A DNA stretch of 64,000 nucleotides. Source: Methanothermococcus thermolithotrophicus DSM 2095 (GTDB lineage: Archaea; AGJL01; Methanococci; Methanococcales; Methanococcaceae). The position numbers and the translations under genes were made by a program. Positions 12,334 through 24,355 of the stretch are shown piece by piece (position 1 is the stretch's first letter; the number at the start of each line of letters is the position of its first letter). Under the pieces are notes generated by a model. That model searched no databases. It had not been told where the DNA came from and saw only the letters and a program-made list of their open reading frames with translations. Location of the stretch: assembly GCF_946463545.1 (NCBI RefSeq), contig NZ_OX296583.1, positions 1,642,497 to 1,706,496 of the forward strand, in the 5' to 3' direction.

Positions 12334-13209
<876 letters not shown>

Positions 13210-13227
13210 TTTGTAAAAATGAAAATT

Positions 13228-13256
13228 AAATTAATTAATGACTCCGCTATTAATTT
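13228..13256 (+). terminator. hairpin between nifH and nifI1
   Basis: AAATTAAT (13228-13235) can pair with ATTAATTT (13249-13256), followed by TTAATA. It could act as a partial terminator or 3'-end stabiliser giving more nifH than downstream message; this is inferred. Confidence 0.45.
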
Positions 13257-13279
13257 TTAATAACTGATATGGTGACATA

Positions 13280-13597
13280 ATGAAGATGATAAAGGCAATT
13301 GTTAGGCCAGATAAAGTTGATGATATTGTAGATTCCTTAGAAAACGCTGGTTATCCAGCATTTACAAAAATAAACAGTGTGGGAAGAGGTAAGCAAGGAG
13401 GATTGAAGGTTGGTGAAATATTCTACGATGAATTGCCAAAAACCATATTATTAATTGCTGTAAATGACGACGAAGTAGATGAAGTTGTGGGATTGATAAA
13501 ATCTTCAGCCAGTACTGGAAACTTTGGAGATGGTAAAATCTTCATCCAACCTATTACTGAGGCATATACAATTAGAACCGGAGAAACAGGAATTTAA
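13280..13597 (+). CDS. nifI1: nitrogenase regulatory PII-like protein NifI1
   Basis: PII-family subunit that, with NifI2, binds the MoFe protein and shuts off nitrogenase after ammonium addition; 2-oxoglutarate and ATP relieve it. The 105 residues start MKMIKAIVRPDKVDDIV and end in the PII C-terminal signature TGNFGDGKIFI plus IRTGETG. The T-loop region (GRGKQGGLKVGEIFYDELPK) is shorter than in GlnB/GlnK and lacks the uridylylated Tyr context. Location between nifH and nifD is diagnostic of archaeal and some anaerobic bacterial nif operons. Confidence 0.95.
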   Translation: MKMIKAIVRPDKVDDIVDSLENAGYPAFTKINSVGRGKQGGLKVGEIFYDELPKTILLIAVNDDEVDEVVGLIKSSASTGNFGDGKIFIQPITEAYTIRTGETGI

Positions 13598-13611
13598 TAG
13601 TTGGTGAAGTT

Positions 13612-13998
13612 ATGAAGGAGGTTATAGCAATAATAAGGCCCAATACAGTTTCAAAAACTGTAAAAGCACTTGATGTAGTTGGTTTTCCAGCAGTAACAAT
13701 GGCCGAGTGCTTTGGAAGGGGAAAACAAAAAGGATATTTTTCAGCAAATCTACCTGAGATTGTTGATATCCAAAAGATCATAGAAGAAGGAGAAAAGGAA
13801 GGAAGATTTATCAAATACATTCCAAAGAGGCTGATATCCATAGTGGTGGACGATGCTGATGTTCCTTTGGTTGTTGGAATAATCTCAAAAGTAAACAGAA
13901 CAGGAAGTTTTGGAGATGGACGTATATTTGTTTTACCAGTGGAAGAGGCCATTAGAGTAAGGACCGGAGAAACTGGAGAAATAGCCATAGGAAACTAA
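13612..13998 (+). CDS. nifI2: nitrogenase regulatory PII-like protein NifI2
   Basis: Second subunit of the NifI1-NifI2 switch. The 128 residues open with MKEVIAIIRPNTVSKTV and end with the PII signature RTGSFGDGRIFVLPVEEAIRVRTGE. The T-loop segment (CFGRGKQKGYFSANLPEIVDIQKI, about residues 40-70) is longer than in NifI1, as expected for NifI2. The gene starts 14 bases after nifI1. The sensor of 2-oxoglutarate lies within this pair, so post-translational shut-off of nitrogenase by ammonium is predicted. Confidence 0.95.
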   Translation: MKEVIAIIRPNTVSKTVKALDVVGFPAVTMAECFGRGKQKGYFSANLPEIVDIQKIIEEGEKEGRFIKYIPKRLISIVVDDADVPLVVGIISKVNRTGSFGDGRIFVLPVEEAIRVRTGETGEIAIGN

Positions 13999-14034
13999 AT
14001 TAGTATAAAACGATCAGTGAATCAAAGAAACAGT

Positions 14035-14102
14035 GGGAAATCAAAAAAGTTATTTACGGGAGCGAAGCGGAGGTTATCCCTCCAAGAATTACTCGATTTC
14101 CC
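14035..14102 (+). promoter_or_regulatory. long stem-loop in the nifI2-nifD spacer
   Basis: The outer arms GGGAAATC (14035-14042) and GATTTCCC (14095-14102) are perfect complements and enclose a second hairpin, GGAGG-TTATC-CCTCC (14069-14083), with a GAGCGAAGCGG segment of palindromic-element type. It is a likely RNA structure in the nif transcript, perhaps a processing or attenuation site; function is inferred. Confidence 0.5.
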
Positions 14103-14187
14103 AATTTTCAGCCCATTTTAACATATTGGAAATCGAAGGTTCCCATATATCTTATGCTTCGCTAACGCTCAGAAAAGGTGAGAATAT

Positions 14188-15624
14188 ATGCCATACATAT
14201 TATTAGATTGTGATAAATTTATTCCAGAAAGAATGAAACACACGTATGTTTACGATCCTGAAGAAAATATTCTTCCAGCATGTAATACCAACACAGTTCC
14301 AGGAGACATGACTGAAAGAGGCTGTGCGTTTGCTGGATCAAGAGGTGTGGTTGGAGGGCCTATAAAAGATGCTATTCACATGGTTCACGGACCGATAGGA
14401 TGTGCCTACTACACCTGGGGAACAAGAAGGGCATTATCTGATAACGAATTCCACAGAAGATACTGCTTCTGTACTGATATGCAGGAATCAGATATCGTAT
14501 ACGGCGGTGAAAAAACACTGGAAAAAGCATGTCTTGAAGTCATGGAGGAATTCCCAGAAGCTAGCGGTACATTCATATATACAACATGTCCTACGGCATT
14601 AATCGGGGATAACGTAGATGCAATAGCAAGAAATATTGAAAAAGCTACAAAAAAACCTGCTATTGCTATTAACAGCCCTGGTTTCTGTGGTGTATCTCAG
14701 TCTAAGGGTCACCACGTTTTCAACATGACATTCTACAAATGGTTGAAATTAAAAAGAAAGGAATTCCCAGAAAAATGTATGCCTGAAGAGGAAAAAACCC
14801 CTTACGATGTAGCTCTGATCGGGGACTACAACATGGATTGGGATGTTGCAGTTATCAAGCCATTACTTGAAAAAATTGGATGCAGATATGTGACAACATT
14901 CACTGGAAATGCATCATTGGATGAGCTCTTCCAGTTAATGGATGTTAAATTAAACATAGTACACTGTCAAAGATCAGCTGAGTATATTGCCCAGATGATA
15001 AATGATGGATTTGATATACCATATACAAGAGCTACATTCTTTGGGCTGTCAGATATAGCTGAATCACTTTACGATGTTGCTAAAGCTCTGGATTTACCAA
15101 AAGAAAGAGTTGACCAGGTTATAAAAGAAGAAATGGAAGCCATACAACCTAAACTTGACTACTATAAGTCAAAATTGGAAGGAAAAACCTGTATGGTATA
15201 TGTCGGGGGACCAAGAACCTGGCACTGGATAAAAGCTATGAAAGATCTTGGGGTCGAATACGTTGCTGCATGCTGTACATTCTCCCACACAGATGATTAT
15301 GAAAAGATGAACAAGAACTTCAAAGAAGCTGGAATAAAAGACATATTAGTTATAGATGCACCAAATGAACCAGAACTTGAGGAAGCAGTAAAAACACTTG
15401 ATCCAGACTTTATGCTCGTAGGATTAAAAGAAAGATACTTATTCAGAAAATATGGAGTTCCAACAATTAATTCCCACTCTTACGAAGAAGGTCCATATGC
15501 AGGTTACAGAGGATTTGTGAACTTTGCAAGAGACGTTTACAAAGCGGTATGCCACCCAGTATGGAATGTGTTAAAAGAAGGTGAGGATAAATTCAAAAAC
15601 TTTAAAGGGGATTTAAATGAGTGA
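14188..15624 (+). CDS. nifD: nitrogenase MoFe protein alpha chain
   Basis: Alpha subunit of the alpha2-beta2 dinitrogenase; it holds FeMo-cofactor and half of each P-cluster. The 478 residues show the three P-cluster Cys in ERGCAFAG, GPIGCAYYTW and YTTCPTALIGDN, the cofactor Cys in IVHCQRSAEYI, and the cofactor His in NSHSYEEGPYAGYRGF. The length fits the archaeal form. A 190-bp spacer upstream contains a long hairpin, and the start ATG follows GGTGAGAATAT. The gene overlaps nifK by 8 bases, so alpha and beta chains should be translationally coupled. Confidence 0.97.
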   Translation: MPYILLDCDKFIPERMKHTYVYDPEENILPACNTNTVPGDMTERGCAFAGSRGVVGGPIKDAIHMVHGPIGCAYYTWGTRRALSDNEFHRRYCFCTDMQESDIVYGGEKTLEKACLEVMEEFPEASGTFIYTTCPTALIGDNVDAIARNIEKATKKPAIAINSPGFCGVSQSKGHHVFNMTFYKWLKLKRKEFPEKCMPEEEKTPYDVALIGDYNMDWDVAVIKPLLEKIGCRYVTTFTGNASLDELFQLMDVKLNIVHCQRSAEYIAQMINDGFDIPYTRATFFGLSDIAESLYDVAKALDLPKERVDQVIKEEMEAIQPKLDYYKSKLEGKTCMVYVGGPRTWHWIKAMKDLGVEYVAACCTFSHTDDYEKMNKNFKEAGIKDILVIDAPNEPELEEAVKTLDPDFMLVGLKERYLFRKYGVPTINSHSYEEGPYAGYRGFVNFARDVYKAVCHPVWNVLKEGEDKFKNFKGDLNE

Positions 15625-17023
15625 AGTCAACGCAGGCGAAATCTGTTACGTAAAAAAACAGAGAAAAGGAACAATTAATCCAAACAAAATATGCCAACCG
15701 ATAGGAGCAATGTGGGCAACAGTTGGTGTAAAAGGTACAATTCCATTTGTTCAAGGTTCCCAGGGGTGTACCACCTATGTTAGGTATGCATTCAACAGAC
15801 ACTTTAGGGAACCTGTATCTATAGCTACAGCATCTTTCCACGAACATGCTGCAGTATATGGTGGTATGAGCAACCTTGTTGATGGTTTGACTAACTTGGT
15901 AGCAAGGTATGATCCATATTCAATATCAGTAATTACAACGTGCTCCTCTGAAACCATTGGGGATGATATAGAATCATTCATAAGGGCGGCTAAAAAGAAT
16001 ATTGCCAAAAAATTAGGTGAGGAAAAGGCAGAACTACCAATCATTCCAATCCACTGTCCATCATACCAGGGGAGCCACGTCACAGGATATGACAATGCAG
16101 CAAAGGCTTTCATCAACTACCTTGCAAAAAAAGATGATGAGAAAGAACCCCATAAAATAAACATTATTCCAGGATTTGGTGTTAACCCTGGAGATATACT
16201 TGAGATAAAGAGAATGCTTGAAATGTTTGGATTAAAGGATCGTGAAGATTACTCAGTATTATTCGATATAAGTGAAACTCTCTACCAACCACTTAGAGAA
16301 CCGCTTGGTGAAATACCACACTTCCCAAGACTTGGAACTGAATTGGACGAATTCGTAGATTCTGCAAATGCAAAAGCTACCTTTGCCCTATGTAGAACTG
16401 CTGGAGGAGCTGGTGCAGAAATACTCAGAAGAAGATACAAAGTTGATGCATATTATGGATTGCCAATAGGCTTGAAGAACACCGATGACTTCGTAATAAA
16501 TGTTGCAAAGGTCACAGGGAAAAGTATTCCAGATAAGCTCCTTGATGAAAGAGGTAAACTTATAGATGCAATTGCTGATACCATACATTATACAATGGAT
16601 AAAAAAGTAGGTATATTCGGTGACCCGGACTTCGTAGTTGCAGTAGCAAGATTCTGCTGTGAAATTGGGATGAAACCGGTTGTTGTAAATACACAGACAC
16701 CTTCAAGAACATACCAAAAAGAAATGGAAGCTATTGCCAAAGAACACAATGTTGGCATTGAAGTGCAGTTCTCAGACCTTTGGGACTTTGAGAAGTCAGT
16801 TAAAGAGAAGGAAGTAGATTTACTCATAGGACACCCAAGAGGTGGAGTACCAATAGCCAAAGATATGGATATTGGACTTGTTAGAATGGGATTCCCAATA
16901 TACGATAGAGTTGGGCACTTTAGATGGCCTATGGTAGGATATATGGGAACTTTAAGATTCTTTGATGATATAGTAAACACAATACTTGATACGAAAGTCC
17001 CATGGGATCAAAAACAACAGTAA
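15617..17023 (+). CDS. nifK: nitrogenase MoFe protein beta chain
   Basis: Beta subunit of dinitrogenase. The 468 residues show the P-cluster Cys in QGSQGCTTYVRY and TTCSSETIGDD, plus NPNKICQPIGAMWATVGVKG, which contains the first Cys. The fold-defining regions HCPSYQGSHVTGYDNA and the C-terminal RMGFPIYDRVGHFRWPMVGYMG are intact. The N-terminus is short, lacking the roughly 50-residue extension of class I bacterial NifK, which is typical of the archaeal group. It overlaps nifD by 8 bases; the next gene follows after 21 bases. Confidence 0.97.
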   Translation: MSEVNAGEICYVKKQRKGTINPNKICQPIGAMWATVGVKGTIPFVQGSQGCTTYVRYAFNRHFREPVSIATASFHEHAAVYGGMSNLVDGLTNLVARYDPYSISVITTCSSETIGDDIESFIRAAKKNIAKKLGEEKAELPIIPIHCPSYQGSHVTGYDNAAKAFINYLAKKDDEKEPHKINIIPGFGVNPGDILEIKRMLEMFGLKDREDYSVLFDISETLYQPLREPLGEIPHFPRLGTELDEFVDSANAKATFALCRTAGGAGAEILRRRYKVDAYYGLPIGLKNTDDFVINVAKVTGKSIPDKLLDERGKLIDAIADTIHYTMDKKVGIFGDPDFVVAVARFCCEIGMKPVVVNTQTPSRTYQKEMEAIAKEHNVGIEVQFSDLWDFEKSVKEKEVDLLIGHPRGGVPIAKDMDIGLVRMGFPIYDRVGHFRWPMVGYMGTLRFFDDIVNTILDTKVPWDQKQQ

Positions 17024-17044
17024 TTAGTAAAAAAGGATGATATC

Positions 17045-17368
17045 ATGTCTGATATGAAGATTAGATTGGCGAAGTTCTATGACAAGATGGGGAGAGCAGT
17101 AAATGATGGCGATGAATTTGTGTATGCCACATTTCAGATAGGAAAAGAAGATAAACCAGTTGAAGGGGATGTACTCGTACAGGTAACCAACCTTAAAGGA
17201 ATTCCCATAATTGTAGCAAAATACATCATTGAGAAATACGGCTATGGTGGTTATGGAAAACCAAAAGATGTAGGTAGTCTTGATGATGTTAAAAAATTTG
17301 GAGTTCCAGAAGAAACCATAGAAGAAATAAGGAACATTTGTAAATCCAAAGGTATTGACTGGATCTAA
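17045..17368 (+). CDS. small protein of unknown function in the nif operon
   Basis: I do not recognise this 107-residue protein. It has no Cys, no signal peptide and no membrane segment, and looks like a compact alpha/beta domain: KIRLAKFYDKMGRAV, a beta-rich middle (FVYATFQIG, DVLVQVTNLKGIPIIVA), then YIIEKYGYGGYGKPKDV and a C-terminal helix. It begins 21 bases after nifK with a normal ribosome site, so it is made with the MoFe subunits. It is not NifX, which has a different cofactor-binding sequence; M. maripaludis, as I recall its operon, has nifE directly after nifK. Candidate MoFe-associated or protective subunit; this is inference from position only. Confidence 0.7.
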   Translation: MSDMKIRLAKFYDKMGRAVNDGDEFVYATFQIGKEDKPVEGDVLVQVTNLKGIPIIVAKYIIEKYGYGGYGKPKDVGSLDDVKKFGVPEETIEEIRNICKSKGIDWI

Positions 17369-17443
17369 TGCTTGGATATGCTACAATTACGATGTGCTGC
17401 AATAATTCATAACTGATTCATAACTGCCACTTTTTCCCTATTG

Positions 17444-17462
17444 GTGAAACCTCTGGTTTCAC
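17444..17462 (+). terminator. perfect hairpin upstream of nifE
   Basis: GTGAAACC-TCT-GGTTTCAC, an 8-bp stem with a 3-base loop, followed by ATTTTAAAT. It lies in the 218-bp gap before nifE. Probably an RNA processing or partial termination point separating the structural genes from nifEN. No NrpR-type site was seen in this gap. Confidence 0.5.
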
Positions 17463-17586
17463 ATTTTAAATATTAATATTATTGTGAGAATTTACCTGCG
17501 AGAAATGTTGGTTATTTGAGTATTATGTTTATCATGATTATTAATTAAAGATTATTTAAAAGGTTATTAATAAATCGTGTGATACT

Positions 17587-18909
17587 ATGCCTTACAAAGT
17601 ACTTAACTGTGACAAAGAAAGACCAGATCGAACTATGCACTGTACTGTTAAAAGTGAGGATGCTGTTATCCCAACCTGTTCTAAATTCACCTTACCGGGT
17701 GATTCTAGTGAAAGATCATGTGCATTTCATGGATGCAGGGTAGTAATATGTAACCAAATAAAAAACGTGGTTCATCTAGTACATTCTCCCATGAGCTGTG
17801 CATACCATTCATGGGATTACCGTTCCCAATCATACGGATACGGATTTACAACAGATCTTCAAGAAAGCGATATAATATTTGGTGGTGAAGAAAAGTTATT
17901 TGAAGCCATATTAAAGGCTGCAGAGGAGTTCAATCCTGATGCAGTTTTTGTATATGAAACATGCACTCCAGCACTAATAGGAAACGATATACAATCTGTA
18001 GCAAAAAAAGCCAGTGAAAAATTAGGGATACCAGTACTAGCTTTTAATTGTGCAGGTTTTAAAGGTGCAAATCAGAATGCTGGGCATAAAATAGCAAACG
18101 AACAGCTCTTTCAATTAATAGGTACCCGAGAGTGTGAAACCACACCTTACGATGTAAATCTTATAGGAGATTTTGGTGTAAAAGATGCAAAGGTTATAGA
18201 GGAAATGTTGGGTAAGATAGGAGTTAGAGTCTTATGCTCATTTACAGGTAATGCATCTATTGACAAAATAAGGGTCATGCACAAAGCAAAGGTCAACATC
18301 GTACACTGCATGAAAAGTTCAATGAATTTAGCCAAAATGATGAGGGAAAAATATGGAATTCCCTATGTGACTGCAAATTTCTTTGGTATTGAAAGCTGTT
18401 CAACTGCGCTGAGACGAATAGGCATGGTTCTTGGGATAGATGAAGAGAAAATTGAAAAGGTTATAAGTGAAAATCTAGAACAAGTGAAACCAAAATTGGA
18501 GTTCTTTAAGGAGAAACTTGAAGGTAAGAAGGTCTTTATATGTCACGGTGCTCAGAGGGTTCTTCACTATATCAATCCTCTTAAAAATGACCTTGGAATG
18601 GAAATAGTAGGAATAGCCACTTACTTTGGAAATGAAGAAAATTACGAGAAAATACTTAAGAGGGTTCCAGAGGGGACCATCATAATTGACAATCCAAATA
18701 CTCACGAGCTCGAAGAGATAATACTTGAATGTAAACCTGATATATTCGTATCCGACAATAAAACAAGGCAGCTCCTATACAAACTTGGAACTCCATTCAT
18801 ATACGGAAGGGGGATAAAAAGAAGTTATGTAGGATTTGATGGCTTTGTAAATTTTGCAGAGGAAGTTTATGGAACGGTTAACTCAAAGGTCTGGAAACTT
18901 ATACGATAA
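17587..18909 (+). CDS. nifE: FeMo-cofactor scaffold protein NifE
   Basis: Alpha-type subunit of the NifEN scaffold on which the NifB-co precursor is matured to FeMo-cofactor. The 440 residues parallel NifD: SERSCAFHGCRVV, HSPMSCAYHSWDYR and YETCTPALIGND supply cluster Cys, and NIVHCMKSSMNL replaces the NifD cofactor loop. The C-terminal region has GRGIKRSYVGFDGFVNFAEEVYG in place of the NifD His motif. Start ATG at 17587, 218 bp after the small nif gene, with a hairpin in the gap. nifB and nifV, also needed for cofactor synthesis, are not in the window. Confidence 0.95.
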   Translation: MPYKVLNCDKERPDRTMHCTVKSEDAVIPTCSKFTLPGDSSERSCAFHGCRVVICNQIKNVVHLVHSPMSCAYHSWDYRSQSYGYGFTTDLQESDIIFGGEEKLFEAILKAAEEFNPDAVFVYETCTPALIGNDIQSVAKKASEKLGIPVLAFNCAGFKGANQNAGHKIANEQLFQLIGTRECETTPYDVNLIGDFGVKDAKVIEEMLGKIGVRVLCSFTGNASIDKIRVMHKAKVNIVHCMKSSMNLAKMMREKYGIPYVTANFFGIESCSTALRRIGMVLGIDEEKIEKVISENLEQVKPKLEFFKEKLEGKKVFICHGAQRVLHYINPLKNDLGMEIVGIATYFGNEENYEKILKRVPEGTIIIDNPNTHELEEIILECKPDIFVSDNKTRQLLYKLGTPFIYGRGIKRSYVGFDGFVNFAEEVYGTVNSKVWKLIR

Positions 18910-19027
18910 TTTAGTGAGCCATAAAACTGTAGATTGTGAAATGATTAATGTGATTAATGTCGGGAAAGGGTTATGAGGTGAAATTATTTCAATCGAAGTT
19001 ATTAACGAAGAAAAAAGATCACTAACT

Positions 19028-20554
19028 GTGAATTCCCCAAAAATGGATCAGTTGTTGGGGGGAGTATTTGCAGCACTTGGCATATATAAAACCGTTCCAC
19101 TTATTCATGGTTCCCAAGGATGTGCCAGCTATGTAAAGAGTATAATAACAAAACACTTTAAAGAACCTGTTGAAATTGCCACTACGGGTTTTTATGAAGT
19201 TTCGGCAATATATGGGGGCAGAGATAACCTGATCTATGGTATTAAAAATATTGTAAAAAACAAACAGCCGGATTTAGTAGTGGTGATGACAACAGGTTTA
19301 AGTGAGACTATTGGTGAGGACATACAAGGTGGATTAAAAAAAGCCACTGAGGACCTTAGCAAGTGTCACGGTAAATCTACAGGTACTGCAAGCACTTCTA
19401 ATACGGCCAAGTTCTGTAAATACGATGAAACGAAACCATGCAACTGTTCAAATCAAAATCATAATGGACAGAGAGGCTGCGAACGTAGAAAATCACGTTG
19501 CGGTGAGACGCAGAAAAGATGTGAGGGTAAAAAATCAAAGTCTTCAGCCAACGTTGTTGCAGTAAGTACCCCATCTTATGTAGGCACCCACATAAATGGA
19601 TATGACAGTACCCTAAAAGAAATTATCAAGGCACTTGTAATGGAAGAAAAAAATAAAACTGGCAGATGTGGAAAGGGCAGTAGTGGCAAATGCAACCCTT
19701 CAGGACGTTCAAATAAAATAAATATAATACCTGGAGTGGTGAATCCAGGTGATGTTAGAGAAATAAAACACATATGCAGGGAAATGAACATATGTTACAC
19801 CCTGCTTACAGATATTACCTCACTTGACCGTCCATTGAGACGTCCAAAGGAAAAGTTTCCAGAATGTGAAACAACAGTTGATGCCATAAAAAGAGCTCCG
19901 AATTCAAAGGCCACAATATCATTTGGAATCGAAGGTATTAGTGGGGCAAAATATCTTGAAAACTTTGGGGTTACATCCTACAATCTAAAGTTCCCAATAG
20001 GAATTGAAAATACAGATAACTTTGTAAAGACATTATCTGAAATATCAGGTAAAGAAATTCCAGATTCCATATGGGACGAGAGAGGCTATGCAATAGATGC
20101 CATGGTAGATGCAAACGGTGTTTTGAGAAACAGAAAAGTTGCAATATTTGGTGATCCAGATAAAGTTATAGGTTTAACAGATTTTGCATTTGAAATGGGA
20201 ATGAAAGTCATAGCTGTCCTTTCTCCTACTAAAACTCCATATTTCACCTCTGAAATGGAAAGAATATCAAGGGAGAATGATGTAAAAATCACCGTATTTG
20301 AAAATGGCGATTTATATCAGCTCCATAAGTTCATAAAGAAAAATCCTATCGACCTGATTATCGGGGATTATAGGGGAAGATATATAGCAAATGAAGAAGA
20401 AATACCTTTGCTTAGGGTTGGATTCCCAGTTATCGATAGGTACGGATACCATAGGAAACCTATGTTAGGATATAGTGGAGCATTGAGAATTGCAGAAGAT
20501 GCTGCAAATCTCTTGGTAGGATCATCAGAAACCTATAAAACTTTACACATTTGA
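19028..20554 (+). CDS. nifN: FeMo-cofactor scaffold protein NifN with Cys-rich insertions
   Basis: Beta-type subunit of the NifEN scaffold, 508 residues from the GTG at 19028. NifK-like motifs are HGSQGCASYVK, STPSYVGTHINGYDS and the C-terminal VGFPVIDRYGYHRKPMLGYSGALR. Two hydrophilic insertions are unusual: residues about 113-172, with seven Cys (PCNC, GCER, RCGE and others) and many Lys/Ser, and about 205-231, with two more (GRCGKGSSGKC). The start is uncertain: GTG 19028 has no good ribosome site, while GAGGTGA at 18975 sits just before an in-frame ATT at 18986, which would add 14 residues (SIEVINEEKRS) resembling normal NifN N-termini. No nifX follows. Confidence 0.92.
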   Translation: MNSPKMDQLLGGVFAALGIYKTVPLIHGSQGCASYVKSIITKHFKEPVEIATTGFYEVSAIYGGRDNLIYGIKNIVKNKQPDLVVVMTTGLSETIGEDIQGGLKKATEDLSKCHGKSTGTASTSNTAKFCKYDETKPCNCSNQNHNGQRGCERRKSRCGETQKRCEGKKSKSSANVVAVSTPSYVGTHINGYDSTLKEIIKALVMEEKNKTGRCGKGSSGKCNPSGRSNKINIIPGVVNPGDVREIKHICREMNICYTLLTDITSLDRPLRRPKEKFPECETTVDAIKRAPNSKATISFGIEGISGAKYLENFGVTSYNLKFPIGIENTDNFVKTLSEISGKEIPDSIWDERGYAIDAMVDANGVLRNRKVAIFGDPDKVIGLTDFAFEMGMKVIAVLSPTKTPYFTSEMERISRENDVKITVFENGDLYQLHKFIKKNPIDLIIGDYRGRYIANEEEIPLLRVGFPVIDRYGYHRKPMLGYSGALRIAEDAANLLVGSSETYKTLHI

Positions 20555-20902: not shown

Positions 20903-20916
20903 GGAAAGAGATTTCC
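20903..20916. promoter_or_regulatory. NrpR-type operator 1 of the molybdate operon
   Basis: GGAAAGAGATTTCC fits GGAA-N6-TTCC. It is the first of two sites between the TATA box and the modA start. Confidence 0.75.
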
Positions 20917-20935: not shown

Positions 20936-20949
20936 GGAAATATACTTCC
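20936..20949. promoter_or_regulatory. NrpR-type operator 2 of the molybdate operon
   Basis: GGAAATATACTTCC fits GGAA-N6-TTCC and lies 33 bp from the first site, the same spacing as the pair at nifH. Confidence 0.75.
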
Positions 20950-20958
20950 GATTAAAAT

Positions 20959-21786
20959 ATGGGGGATATTGTGAAAAAGGCATTATTGCTTATATTGGGT
21001 GTTATCGTAGCATTTTCTGGATGTGTTGATAATCAACCAGATGTAAAAATAACAAACTTTGAAGATCTAGGAAACGATGGAGTAACAATATCCATAGGAA
21101 ACCCAGATCACGTTCCAGCAGGAAAATATGCGGTCAAAGTCATAGATAACTTGAAAAGATCGAATCCAGAACTTGCAGATAAAATATTAAAAAACGTGGT
21201 TTCAAAAGATGCCAATGTTAGGGCAGTTTTGGATAAAGTAGTTTCAAAAGAAGTGGATGCAGGATTTGTTTATAGAACCGATGCGTTTATGGAAAAAGAT
21301 AAAGTAGAAATCATTACAATTCCAAAAGAAATTAATGTAGTCCCTGAATATCCTATTGCAGTATTAAAAGACAGTGATAATAAAAAAGAATCAAATGAGT
21401 TTGTGAAATTTGTTCTTTCAAAAGAAGGGCAGGAAATACTAACAAAATATGGGTTTGTAAGTCCAATAGATAACCCAAAACCTTACAGTCCTGAAAAAAT
21501 TGAAGGAACTATTGTAGTTTATGCTGCTGCGTCATTAACAGATGCATTTAAAGATATAGGAAATGAATTTGAAAAAGAGACAGGATGTAAAGTAAAATTA
21601 TTATTTGCGAGCTCAGGTTCTCTGAGGCAGAAAATAGAAGGTGGAGCAGTAGGTGGAGAAAGTGGAGCAGATGTATTTGCTTCAGCAAGTTTAAAACATA
21701 TGAATCTTCTTGAAAATGAAGGATCTGTAGAAGACCACACCATATTTGCAAAGAATGAACTTGTAGTTATAACTCCAAAACAATAA
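20959..21786 (+). CDS. modA: molybdate-binding lipoprotein ModA, circularly permuted
   Basis: Substrate-binding lipoprotein of a molybdate ABC importer, 275 residues. A lipoprotein signal (residues 1-21, lipobox FSGC, Cys22) leads directly into what is normally the C-terminal half of ModA (about residues 28-167: GNPDHVPAGKYA, NVRAVLDKVV, EVDAGFVYRTDA, EYPIAVLK, SKEGQEILTKYGF). A linker (about 168-183, IDNPKPYSPEKIEG) then joins to the normal N-terminal half (184-275: VVYAAASLTDAF, FASSGSLRQKI, GADVFASASLKHM, FAKNELVVITP), and the protein stops there. All ligand-contact regions known from ModA are present, only in rotated order. The frame is continuous. The motif VDN-P/IDN-P at both joints suggests tandem duplication followed by loss of the outer halves. 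NrpR-type control fits molybdenum supply for nitrogenase. Confidence 0.85.
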   Translation: MGDIVKKALLLILGVIVAFSGCVDNQPDVKITNFEDLGNDGVTISIGNPDHVPAGKYAVKVIDNLKRSNPELADKILKNVVSKDANVRAVLDKVVSKEVDAGFVYRTDAFMEKDKVEIITIPKEINVVPEYPIAVLKDSDNKKESNEFVKFVLSKEGQEILTKYGFVSPIDNPKPYSPEKIEGTIVVYAAASLTDAFKDIGNEFEKETGCKVKLLFASSGSLRQKIEGGAVGGESGADVFASASLKHMNLLENEGSVEDHTIFAKNELVVITPKQ

Positions 21787-21820
21787 TTCCAAAGAATATC
21801 CTGCAAAACAAGTGGTGGAC

Positions 21821-22591
21821 ATGCGACTAATAATCTTTAGATTTTTGATGGGGCTAAGTATTGGTGTATTTATTTTATTGGTAATCATGCCCTTTGTGGC
21901 ATTATTATTCAACATATTTTCAAGCCCTTTAGATATGACTATTGATTACCAATCAATACTACGTCCCTTAATTTTAAGTGTAACTACTTCTCTTGTATCA
22001 ACGTTAATCTCACTTTTTGTTGGGATTCCACTGGCATATATACTCACTTACAAAAAATTTCCACTGAAAGAAATATTTGATACCATTGTTAACCTCCCTC
22101 TCGTAGTACCTCCAACTGTTGCAGGATATTTGCTTTTAATAACTTTTGGAAGGTACGGATTGGTGGGATACCCACTACATGTATTGGGGATCACGATAAT
22201 GTTCACGACTTTTGCAATTGTTATGGCCCAGACGTTTGTAGCCCTTCCTTTTATGGTTAGAAGTATTAGGGCTTCTCTTCAAGATATATCTCCGTCATTA
22301 ATTGATGCTGCAAAAACACTTGGTGCAAGTGACTATGAAATATTTAAGGAGATAATTTTGCCTTTATCAAAAGCTGGAATTATATCTGGAATAATATTGA
22401 CTTATGCCAGAGCAATAGGAGAATTTGGGGCCACAGTGATGGTCTGTGGGCTTTTAGACACCCTACCTATAGCAATATTCAATAACGCATTGAGTGGAAA
22501 CAGAGACATTGCAAATATCCTATCATTAATTCTAATTGTTATATCGTTTGGAATTCTGGCGTTATTTAAAAGAATTGCAGCCAAAGATTGA
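21821..22591 (+). CDS. modB: molybdate ABC transporter permease
   Basis: Membrane subunit that forms the channel for molybdate, 256 residues from the ATG at 21821 (two upstream in-frame GTG codons are possible but sit inside the GTGGTGGAC ribosome-site region). It has five to six membrane helices and the cytoplasmic EAA loop, DAAKTLGASDYEIFKEIILPLSKAGIISG in part, which docks on ModC. The motif NLPLVVPPTVAGYLLL is typical of ModB. Near-complete identity of family features, no truncation. Follows modA by about 35 bases; same operon. Confidence 0.93.
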   Translation: MRLIIFRFLMGLSIGVFILLVIMPFVALLFNIFSSPLDMTIDYQSILRPLILSVTTSLVSTLISLFVGIPLAYILTYKKFPLKEIFDTIVNLPLVVPPTVAGYLLLITFGRYGLVGYPLHVLGITIMFTTFAIVMAQTFVALPFMVRSIRASLQDISPSLIDAAKTLGASDYEIFKEIILPLSKAGIISGIILTYARAIGEFGATVMVCGLLDTLPIAIFNNALSGNRDIANILSLILIVISFGILALFKRIAAKD

Positions 22592-22634
22592 GGTGGGATA
22601 TATTGGATATAAGTGGTAAAATACGGTGGAACTT

Positions 22635-23801
22635 ATGATAGAAATTAGTAATGTATCTAAAGGACTAAATGGGCAAGAAATTTTAAACGACATAAATTTA
22701 AGTGTAAATGATAACGAAATAATGGTTCTATTAGGACCAAGTGGTTGTGGAAAAACCACCCTTCTAAAAATTATAGCAGGATTGGTAAAACAGGATACTG
22801 GCAACATAATAGTTAACAATACAGTGATAAATAATCTCCTTCCGCAGAAAAGAAATATAGGGTTTGTTTTCCAGGAGTACGCCCTATTTCCACATAAGAA
22901 TGTTTTTGAAAATATAGCCTTTGGACTAAGAATAAGGAAGATGCCAGAACATGAGATTAAAAATAGAGTAAATGAAATAATGGGAGCTCTTGAAATTGAG
23001 CATCTAACGAATAAAAAAATATCTCAACTGAGTGGTGGACAGAAACAGAGGGTTGCACTAGCAAGGGCTTTGGTAATAAATCCCGATGTTTTACTATTGG
23101 ATGAGCCATTAAGTGCTTTAGATCCAGTTTTAAGGGAAAAGTTAAGGGAGGAATTAAAAATCACACTGAAAAAATTGGGGGTTACTGGAATCTATGTGAC
23201 CCACGATTTAACAGAAGCCATGTTGTTGGGGGATAATGTTGCAGTAATGAATAAAGGAATAATTCAACAGATTGGAAAGCCTGATGAAATATTTTATCAT
23301 CCAAAAAACGAATTTGTTGCAAAATTTGTTGGGGTAAAGAATATTTTGAAAGGAACAGTATTAAAATTAGAAAATGACACTGCAATAGTGGAAATAAATG
23401 GTAATAACAATTCAAAAACATCGTTTAAAATAAGAGTTAGGAAATATCCAATATTCGAAACCAGAAAAGAGATATCCCTATGCATTCATCCAGAGGATGT
23501 TGTATTGGATAGGGTTAAAACCGGAGATGTTGAAAATCAAAGAATTAGGGAGCTCCTTACATCATTTGGAAATAACACAATAAGGGGAAAGGTTATCGAC
23601 ATAGTTCCAAATGGTTCAGTATTAAAAGTTGCTGTAGATATAGGTAGTATGGAGATGTATGCAATTACCACAAGAAATTTATTGAAATACGATATAAATG
23701 ATGAAGTATGGGTTTCATTCAGTAAAGATGCCCCCCACCCAATGTGTGGTAAAAAGTGCAAATCTAAAAATCGAAAATCTTCATGTAAGTGTAAAAACTG
23801 A
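22635..23801 (+). CDS. modC: molybdate ABC transporter ATP-binding protein
   Basis: ATPase of the molybdate importer, 388 residues. Walker A GPSGCGKTT (about residues 33-41), Q-loop FVFQEYALFP, signature LSGGQKQRVALARAL, Walker B VLLLDEPLSALD and switch His in VTHDLTEAM are all intact. After about residue 235 comes a TOBE-like regulatory region. The extreme C-terminus is unusual: a Lys/Cys-rich tail with four Cys (MCGKKC, SCKCKN) that could bind metal. Start: the ATG at 22635 is preceded by GGTGG at 22625-22629; the GTG at 22626 overlaps that site and is unlikely. Confidence 0.93.
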   Translation: MIEISNVSKGLNGQEILNDINLSVNDNEIMVLLGPSGCGKTTLLKIIAGLVKQDTGNIIVNNTVINNLLPQKRNIGFVFQEYALFPHKNVFENIAFGLRIRKMPEHEIKNRVNEIMGALEIEHLTNKKISQLSGGQKQRVALARALVINPDVLLLDEPLSALDPVLREKLREELKITLKKLGVTGIYVTHDLTEAMLLGDNVAVMNKGIIQQIGKPDEIFYHPKNEFVAKFVGVKNILKGTVLKLENDTAIVEINGNNNSKTSFKIRVRKYPIFETRKEISLCIHPEDVVLDRVKTGDVENQRIRELLTSFGNNTIRGKVIDIVPNGSVLKVAVDIGSMEMYAITTRNLLKYDINDEVWVSFSKDAPHPMCGKKCKSKNRKSSCKCKN

Positions 23802-23860: not shown

Positions 23861-24355
23861 ATGTCAGCCATAACAATCAAAAAAGATATAGACGAGATTA
23901 AAAGGAAGCTAACTGAAAAAAATACTGAAGTTTTAATGGTAATAGGTTGCGGTAAATGTGCAAAGATCAGTAAAACTGGAGGTCCTGATGAAGTAAAAGA
24001 GATGAAGAAAATATTAGCTGAAAATGGGTTCAAAATATTTGAACATGATGAATTACCTGATTCCTTAGAAGATAGTTTATGCAAATACGATGCTGTTAAG
24101 GCATTGGCAGAAGATGTTGGAGGGAGCTCCTTTGATTCCATATTGGTACTTGCATGTGGGGCAGGTTTAAAATGTGTTGCAGATAATTTTGAAAATAAAA
24201 AAGTGATTTCAGGGTTAAACACCATAGGAGTGGGCATAAAAGACAAACTCACATGTATTGCATGCGGTGATTGTAGTTTTGATGACGGCATGTGTAAAAG
24301 ATTGGCAATACTTGAAGAGATAAATGAAAATTTGAAAAAATCATATTTTAATTAA
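23861..24355 (+). CDS. MetV-like / MTHFR C-terminal domain Cys-rich protein
   Basis: A 164-residue cytoplasmic protein with eight or more Cys in the pattern of the MTHFR C-terminal / MetV family: IGCGKCAKISKTGG near residue 28, LACGAGLKC near 109, and CIACGDCSFDDGMC near 140. MetV-type proteins carry a metal (zinc or iron-sulfur) site and partner with methylenetetrahydrofolate reductase-like MetF, but no metF is nearby. It follows modC after 59 bases with a strong GGAGG ribosome site, so it may be co-expressed with molybdate uptake under nitrogen limitation. Family assignment is from Cys spacing; role unknown. Confidence 0.65.
   Translation: MSAITIKKDIDEIKRKLTEKNTEVLMVIGCGKCAKISKTGGPDEVKEMKKILAENGFKIFEHDELPDSLEDSLCKYDAVKALAEDVGGSSFDSILVLACGAGLKCVADNFENKKVISGLNTIGVGIKDKLTCIACGDCSFDDGMCKRLAILEEINENLKKSYFN

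Follow-up and report, generated by a model that had tools for sequence, protein, structure and literature searches.

Identification of a Circularly Permuted ModA

The gene cpmodA (circularly permuted modA), located on the forward strand at positions 20959–21786 of the window, the whole stretch of 64,000 nucleotides analysed here, very likely codes for a molybdate receptor held by a lipid anchor. This protein, a natural circular permutant of ModA, would feed the adjacent ModBC and serve mainly the molybdenum supply of nitrogenase. The permuted ModA is a real and old variant, and very probably a working one. It had been proposed in the initial annotation that the segments which normally end ModA come first, and those which normally begin it come last, in one unbroken frame of 275 codons. 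Every segment quoted there is present in this open frame and in the quoted order, and the circular permutation is borne out by the sequence, by a structural model and by relatives in other genomes.

The TIGR01256 (modA) profile matches the protein with 167.6 bits (cut-off 62.5) in two stretches of swapped order, profile positions 84–217 corresponding to residues 22–165. Unlike this protein, normal-order ModAs from the genome of a relative and from Dictyobacter give a single TIGR01256 stretch; the two swapped stretches therefore mark a permuted variant and not ModA in the strict sense. Chance as the source of the swapped matches is out of the question. In pairwise alignment, residues 2–91 of the ModA of Escherichia coli (1amf) pair with residues 182–274 of the query and residues 104–231 with residues 32–167, and these blocks place the cut between ModA residues 91 and 104, with the old ends joined. 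The gene is intact in its own genome (one contig, 1.71 Mb). No second modA piece was detected within the window at a meaningful E-value, neither a remnant nor the overlooked adjacent intact copy that the initial annotation had considered.

The frame begins with a signal peptide with a lipobox (FSGC; 20959–21024), at the end of which Cys22 is the predicted lipid-anchor residue; this cysteine is invariant in all 14 permuted proteins of one alignment (A2). The start codon is probably the GTG at 20971, because relatives start at that position, and the finding is unaffected by this choice. The normally terminal ModA segment follows at 21049–21462 (residues 31–168, about residues 104–231 of E. coli ModA) and comprises lobe II and the C-terminal part of lobe I, with the contact residues Ala54, Val87 and Tyr105 inside it. 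A new linker then leads from the old C-terminus to the old N-terminus (21463–21507, residues 169–183); it is 15 residues long in the branch of Methanococcaceae and Desulforudis and 16–30 residues long elsewhere. The normally initial segment (21508–21783, residues 184–275, about residues 2–91 of E. coli ModA) makes up the N-terminal part of lobe I, contains the contact residues Ser192 and Ser219 and carries the first hinge strand at its C-terminus.

Predicted Structure and Chain Path

The AlphaFold (AF2) model of the permuted protein (pLDDT 90.7, pTM 0.81) was compared with an AF2 prediction of a normal-order ModA (L054) as control, in line with the structural check that the initial annotation had suggested. 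The elements H144–H276 of the control correspond to H34–H163 of the permuted model, and E49–E135 to E184–E273. The model thus recovers the two-lobed type II binding-protein fold with the elements of the control rotated by one cut, placed where the hinge strand gives way to the first helix of lobe II. Solved ModAs align with the control from end to end (Z 22–29, about 220 residues), but with the permuted model only across roughly residues 29–170 (Z 11–13, about 132 residues, 19–39% identity), because the aligner follows chain order; for this reason the normal-order control was used instead. From end to end, the permuted model is matched best by the structure of PstS2 (4h1x; Z 16.7, 213 residues, 15% identity), which is absent from the top 50 matches of the control, and the glycine betaine receptor OpuAC (2b4l, 2b4m) comes next (Z 10.7–11.5, 13–15% identity).

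The chain is cut directly behind the first hinge strand (between positions 91 and 104 of E. coli ModA), a linker of about 15 residues joins the old ends, and the path runs from lobe II through the second hinge to the C-terminal part of lobe I and then to the rest of lobe I. In the prediction, the two lobes and the pocket for molybdate are rebuilt in this way, but a single unbroken strand would cross between the lobes where normal ModA has two, the other strand ending at the C-terminus. The lipid anchor on Cys22 would hold lobe II near the hinge instead of lobe I, and the receptor would close on molybdate with contacts from both lobes and dock on ModBC. The suggestion that the lobes could still close since both joints lie near the original ends needs correction: only the fusion joint of the C- and N-termini is found there, and the new termini are at the first inter-lobe hinge.

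Distribution of the Permuted Order

A genome scan with the single protein gave no matches, and relatives were found by an alignment-based scan followed by a check of segment order. The permuted order with the same cut was found in 22 genomes, which are seven of Methanococcaceae, twelve represented by L042–L053 and three more. What had been treated as a single oddity is thus a family in at least 22 genomes, and the suggested search of related genomes yielded the same order in at least 21 others. Collinear relatives with 61–82% identity occur in five other Methanococcaceae genomes, and also in G035, which is probably the same genome as that of L041 (Methanothermococcus SCGC AD-155-M21), as contig and coordinates agree. 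Identity is 60–63% to proteins from Desulforudis, Desulfotomaculum and Nitrospirota MAGs (Desulfotomaculum and Desulforudis, L042 and L044–L046; Thermodesulfovibrionales, L043), 42–46% to those from three other archaea (L047–L049) and 34–36% to those from four deltaproteobacterial or Tharpella-type MAGs (L050–L053). The host labels of L042 and L043 are less sure because the contigs are short (5.9 and 5.5 kb). In every permuted protein aligned, the cut is at the identical place.

The permuted form is rare, being present in one of 249 genomes sampled from the phylum of Desulforudis, in three of 23 from that of L047 and in six of 247 from that of L050. None was found in the genomes searched of another genus of the same family (g3), and in a tblastn search of plasmids, among the matches listed, ModA appeared in two pieces each, as the normal order gives. 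In one draft genome (G003), the permuted modA has stop codons in the region of the gene start and signal peptide (L035:12450–12640), either a draft error or a frameshift. Between the window gene and three relatives, dN/dS is about 0.16–0.19, which indicates purifying selection across cpmodA; the swapped order thus occurs in independent genomes and under selection, as is expected of a natural permutant.

An artefact of assembly, cloning or binning, or a rearrangement private to one strain, has a negligible chance of explaining the order and is rejected. The short MAG contigs of a few relatives (L042, L043) and the stops upstream of the conserved part in G003 could be taken in its favour, but order and cut are shared by the 22 genomes at 34–82% identity, single-contig assemblies among them (G000, G001, G004, G006), and therefore no artefact is involved. 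It is hardly more credible that cpmodA is a decaying or non-functional gene inside a working mod operon. Two other ModA-like genes of the genome could in principle substitute for it, but they are without the canonical contact residues, and the purifying selection, the frames intact in nearly all genomes and the conserved operators speak against decay. The pseudogene reading is thus rejected on the relatives and on selection.

Operon Context and Regulation

Directly downstream of cpmodA on the same strand are modB, a permease of 259 amino acids with an N-terminus longer than in most ModB (21812–22591), and a modC-type ATPase gene (22626–23801, 391 amino acids); modB and modC follow the permuted modA at every relative locus read. 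The next gene on this strand (23861–24355) encodes a small Cys-containing protein (MVIGCGKCAK...ACGDCSFDDG) that matches no Pfam family above the cut-off; most methanococcal cpmodABC operons have this gene behind modC. Within the L050–L053 group, the gene ahead of the permuted modABC is yebG in L050, and L051 and L053 have a small gene resembling it there.

Upstream of cpmodA, also on the forward strand, lies the nifH-I1-I2-D-K-X-E-N operon (12346–20554), and nif-type genes precede cpmodA likewise in G001, G017, L041, L044, L045 and L046. An HMGL-like gene, probably nifV, directly precedes cpmodA in L042 and L045. The NifN of the window contains a Cys/Lys-rich insert of about 54 residues (19391–19552; TASTSNTAKFCKYDETKPCNCSNQ...GKKSKSS), which is absent from the NifN of G001, G017 and L041. 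The order nifHI1I2DKXEN-modABC and the three modA genes of the genome match Methanothermococcus thermolithotrophicus (PMC9765008). Among the modA genes of this methanogen, only the nif-adjacent one was strongly upregulated under N2 fixation, with a log2FC of 5.5 (PMC9765008); this rise would apply to cpmodA if the genome belongs to this species or a close one.

Two copies of the NrpR-type operator pattern GGAAN6TTCC were recognized before cpmodA on the forward strand, a distal one at 20903–20916 and a proximal one, 33 bp from it, at 20936–20949. In M. maripaludis, this pattern is the consensus of the NrpR operator (PMC2723118). The same pair with the same spacing precedes nifH (12276 and 12309) and occurs nowhere else in the window, nor in any of 100 shuffles. 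At least one such site is present before each methanococcal cpmodA examined, and none before the other archaeal and bacterial cpmodA genes examined. Judging from these sites, NrpR probably represses the cpmod operon when ammonia is available.

The two further ModA-like genes of the genome (G000 positions 1391302–1391988 and 93742–94449; L039:7237–8211 and L040:5668–6444) score weakly against TIGR01256, with 64.8 and 27.4 bits. In both, SCGGPTEAL replaces AAASL, and no modB was found beside either gene (L039, L040).

Molybdate Contact Residues and Ligand

In the ModA of E. coli, molybdate is contacted by S12, S39, A125, V152 and Y170 (PMC8895017). All five are kept in the window protein, as S192, S219, A54, V87 and Y105, respectively. 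Across the 19 permuted proteins compared, only the position of S192 varies, with Gly in G001, G017 and L041 and Val in L050–L053, and the other four are retained throughout; the ligand may therefore differ where S192 is replaced. TIGR01256 is the best family for every permuted protein scanned, including the remote member L050 (95.1 bits). In three permuted ModAs (L037:7035–7853, L038:8072–8890 and L041:4007–4825), YGGAGM replaces YAAASL, the first contact Ser thereby becoming Gly. This motif resembles the YVGAGM of a separate normal-order group of the same order (L011, L014, L018).

Origin of the Permutation

In a tree of de-permuted ModA sequences, the permuted set forms one side of a branch with a weak support of 66, and the ModB proteins that accompany permuted ModAs group as a single clade with an SH-aLRT of 96. 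Trees of the separate halves (120–140 columns) are too short for a branching order and do not reject one clade (p-AU 0.25 and 0.93). Because the ModBs of the permuted operons form one clade, the simplest reading of the sequences is that one ancient permutation was then spread by transfer of whole operons. All 17 permuted operons have a ModB of 257–274 amino acids, compared with mostly 220–239 amino acids beside normal ModA, although kinship confounds this comparison.

Circular permutation usually arises when a gene is duplicated in tandem and the outer halves are then lost. Such a duplication with trimming, as put forward in the initial annotation, is a plausible origin of the permuted ModA, and tandem normal-order modA genes do exist (L057, L104), but neither a fused modA-modA intermediate nor a remnant turned up. 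The VDN-P and IDN-P motifs, which had been regarded as scars of the duplication at the joints, must be given up in this role, since they are not conserved at the joints of the relatives and the permutation is far older than the genome. It is also conceivable, albeit rather unlikely, that the permutation is adaptive, in that the shifted anchor and the cut hinge strand would alter closing and docking, would have co-evolved with the longer ModB and would help the transport system to select molybdate (the unusual tolerance of M. thermolithotrophicus to tungstate during N2 fixation being one example).

Two alternatives concern what the receptor binds and where its chain order came from. Pockets of the ModA type commonly accept tungstate as well as molybdate, as 1wod, a ModA with tungstate, illustrates, and a permuted receptor for tungstate or another oxyanion is a reading to which a low probability is given. 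The ModC scores best against WtpC, Ser192 is absent in some relatives, and the operon of G006 is near formylmethanofuran dehydrogenase-like and moeA-like genes (named from sequence reading) and not near nif. Against this stand the five retained contact positions of the window protein, the first rank of TIGR01256 throughout the permuted proteins scanned, the nif neighbours and NrpR-type operators, and the N2 fixation of M. thermolithotrophicus, which requires Mo and suffers no inhibition by tungstate (PMC9765008). Lower still is the probability that the order was shared by descent with another permuted family of solute-binding proteins, such as PstS2, and that the lobes became ModA-like later. 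Besides being the best end-to-end match and missing from the top matches of the control, 4h1x is the sole PDB chain whose sequence match covers a good part of both flanks of the new joint, a weak match with E from 1.6e-4 to 5e-8. Nevertheless, both halves are ModA by profile, the identity to 4h1x is only 15%, against the 19–39% reached with ModA structures over residues 29–170, and no phosphate-binding family matches at E 1e-3. A molybdate receptor derived from ModA itself is accordingly preferred on both counts.

Comparison With Known Receptors and Implications

With ModA (TIGR01256; E. coli 1amf, Clostridium difficile 4kd5), cpModA shares two halves that both score as ModA, the five contacts and the following modB and modC. 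It differs in its swapped segments, in its termini at the first hinge, in the joined old ends and in the predicted anchor on lobe II. The normal-order ModA of genus g3 (L013, L020) belongs to the same organism family and is likewise followed by modB, but retains the normal order and has a shorter ModB of 221 amino acids. TpMglB-2 (Tp0684) of Treponema is a natural lipid-anchored permuted ABC receptor as well, which binds its ligand, closes and is present in a clade of species (PMC4990184). This receptor, for which a "Type Ic/Cluster Bc" was proposed, has a type I fold, a sugar ligand and another cut site, and it needs a fourth hinge crossing (PMC4990184), where the permutation of cpModA removes one; cpModA has a type II, ModA-like sequence and model and does not belong to Type Ic. 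A circular-permutation relation between OpuAC and ModA was detected by CPSARST (PMC2395249), but OpuAC has another family and ligand, and its relation is an old one between families and not a permutation within ModA. The PstS2 of the Gram-positive Streptococcus pneumoniae (SP_2084, 4h1x) apparently has the same permuted topology, although it is of the phosphate family; from the end-to-end alignment and the match across the joint, we infer that 4h1x itself is permuted with the lobe order of cpModA. No paper describing 4h1x as permuted was found in the literature searched.

Permuted receptors are thus already known in other families (TpMglB-2, OpuAC and apparently PstS2), and the ModA case appears undescribed. 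Beyond TpMglB-2 and the CPSARST work, no permuted ModA, permuted PstS or permuted lipid-anchored binding protein was met in the literature searched, a body outside which most subscription journals lie; within this incomplete coverage, the view that no natural ModA permutant had been described holds. Natural circular permutation within a family of transporter receptors is a rare event that mostly goes unnoticed until a structure has been solved, and here family-level annotation hid the rearrangement, the gene being called plain modA. The permutation has been kept in two domains of life. It affects a well-studied family and, in a methanogen that fixes N2, what is probably the principal receptor for molybdate. 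In cpModA, nature provides a test case for two questions: whether both hinge strands are required for the Venus flytrap to close and dock, and whether anchoring is a driver of permutation, as proposed for TpMglB-2.
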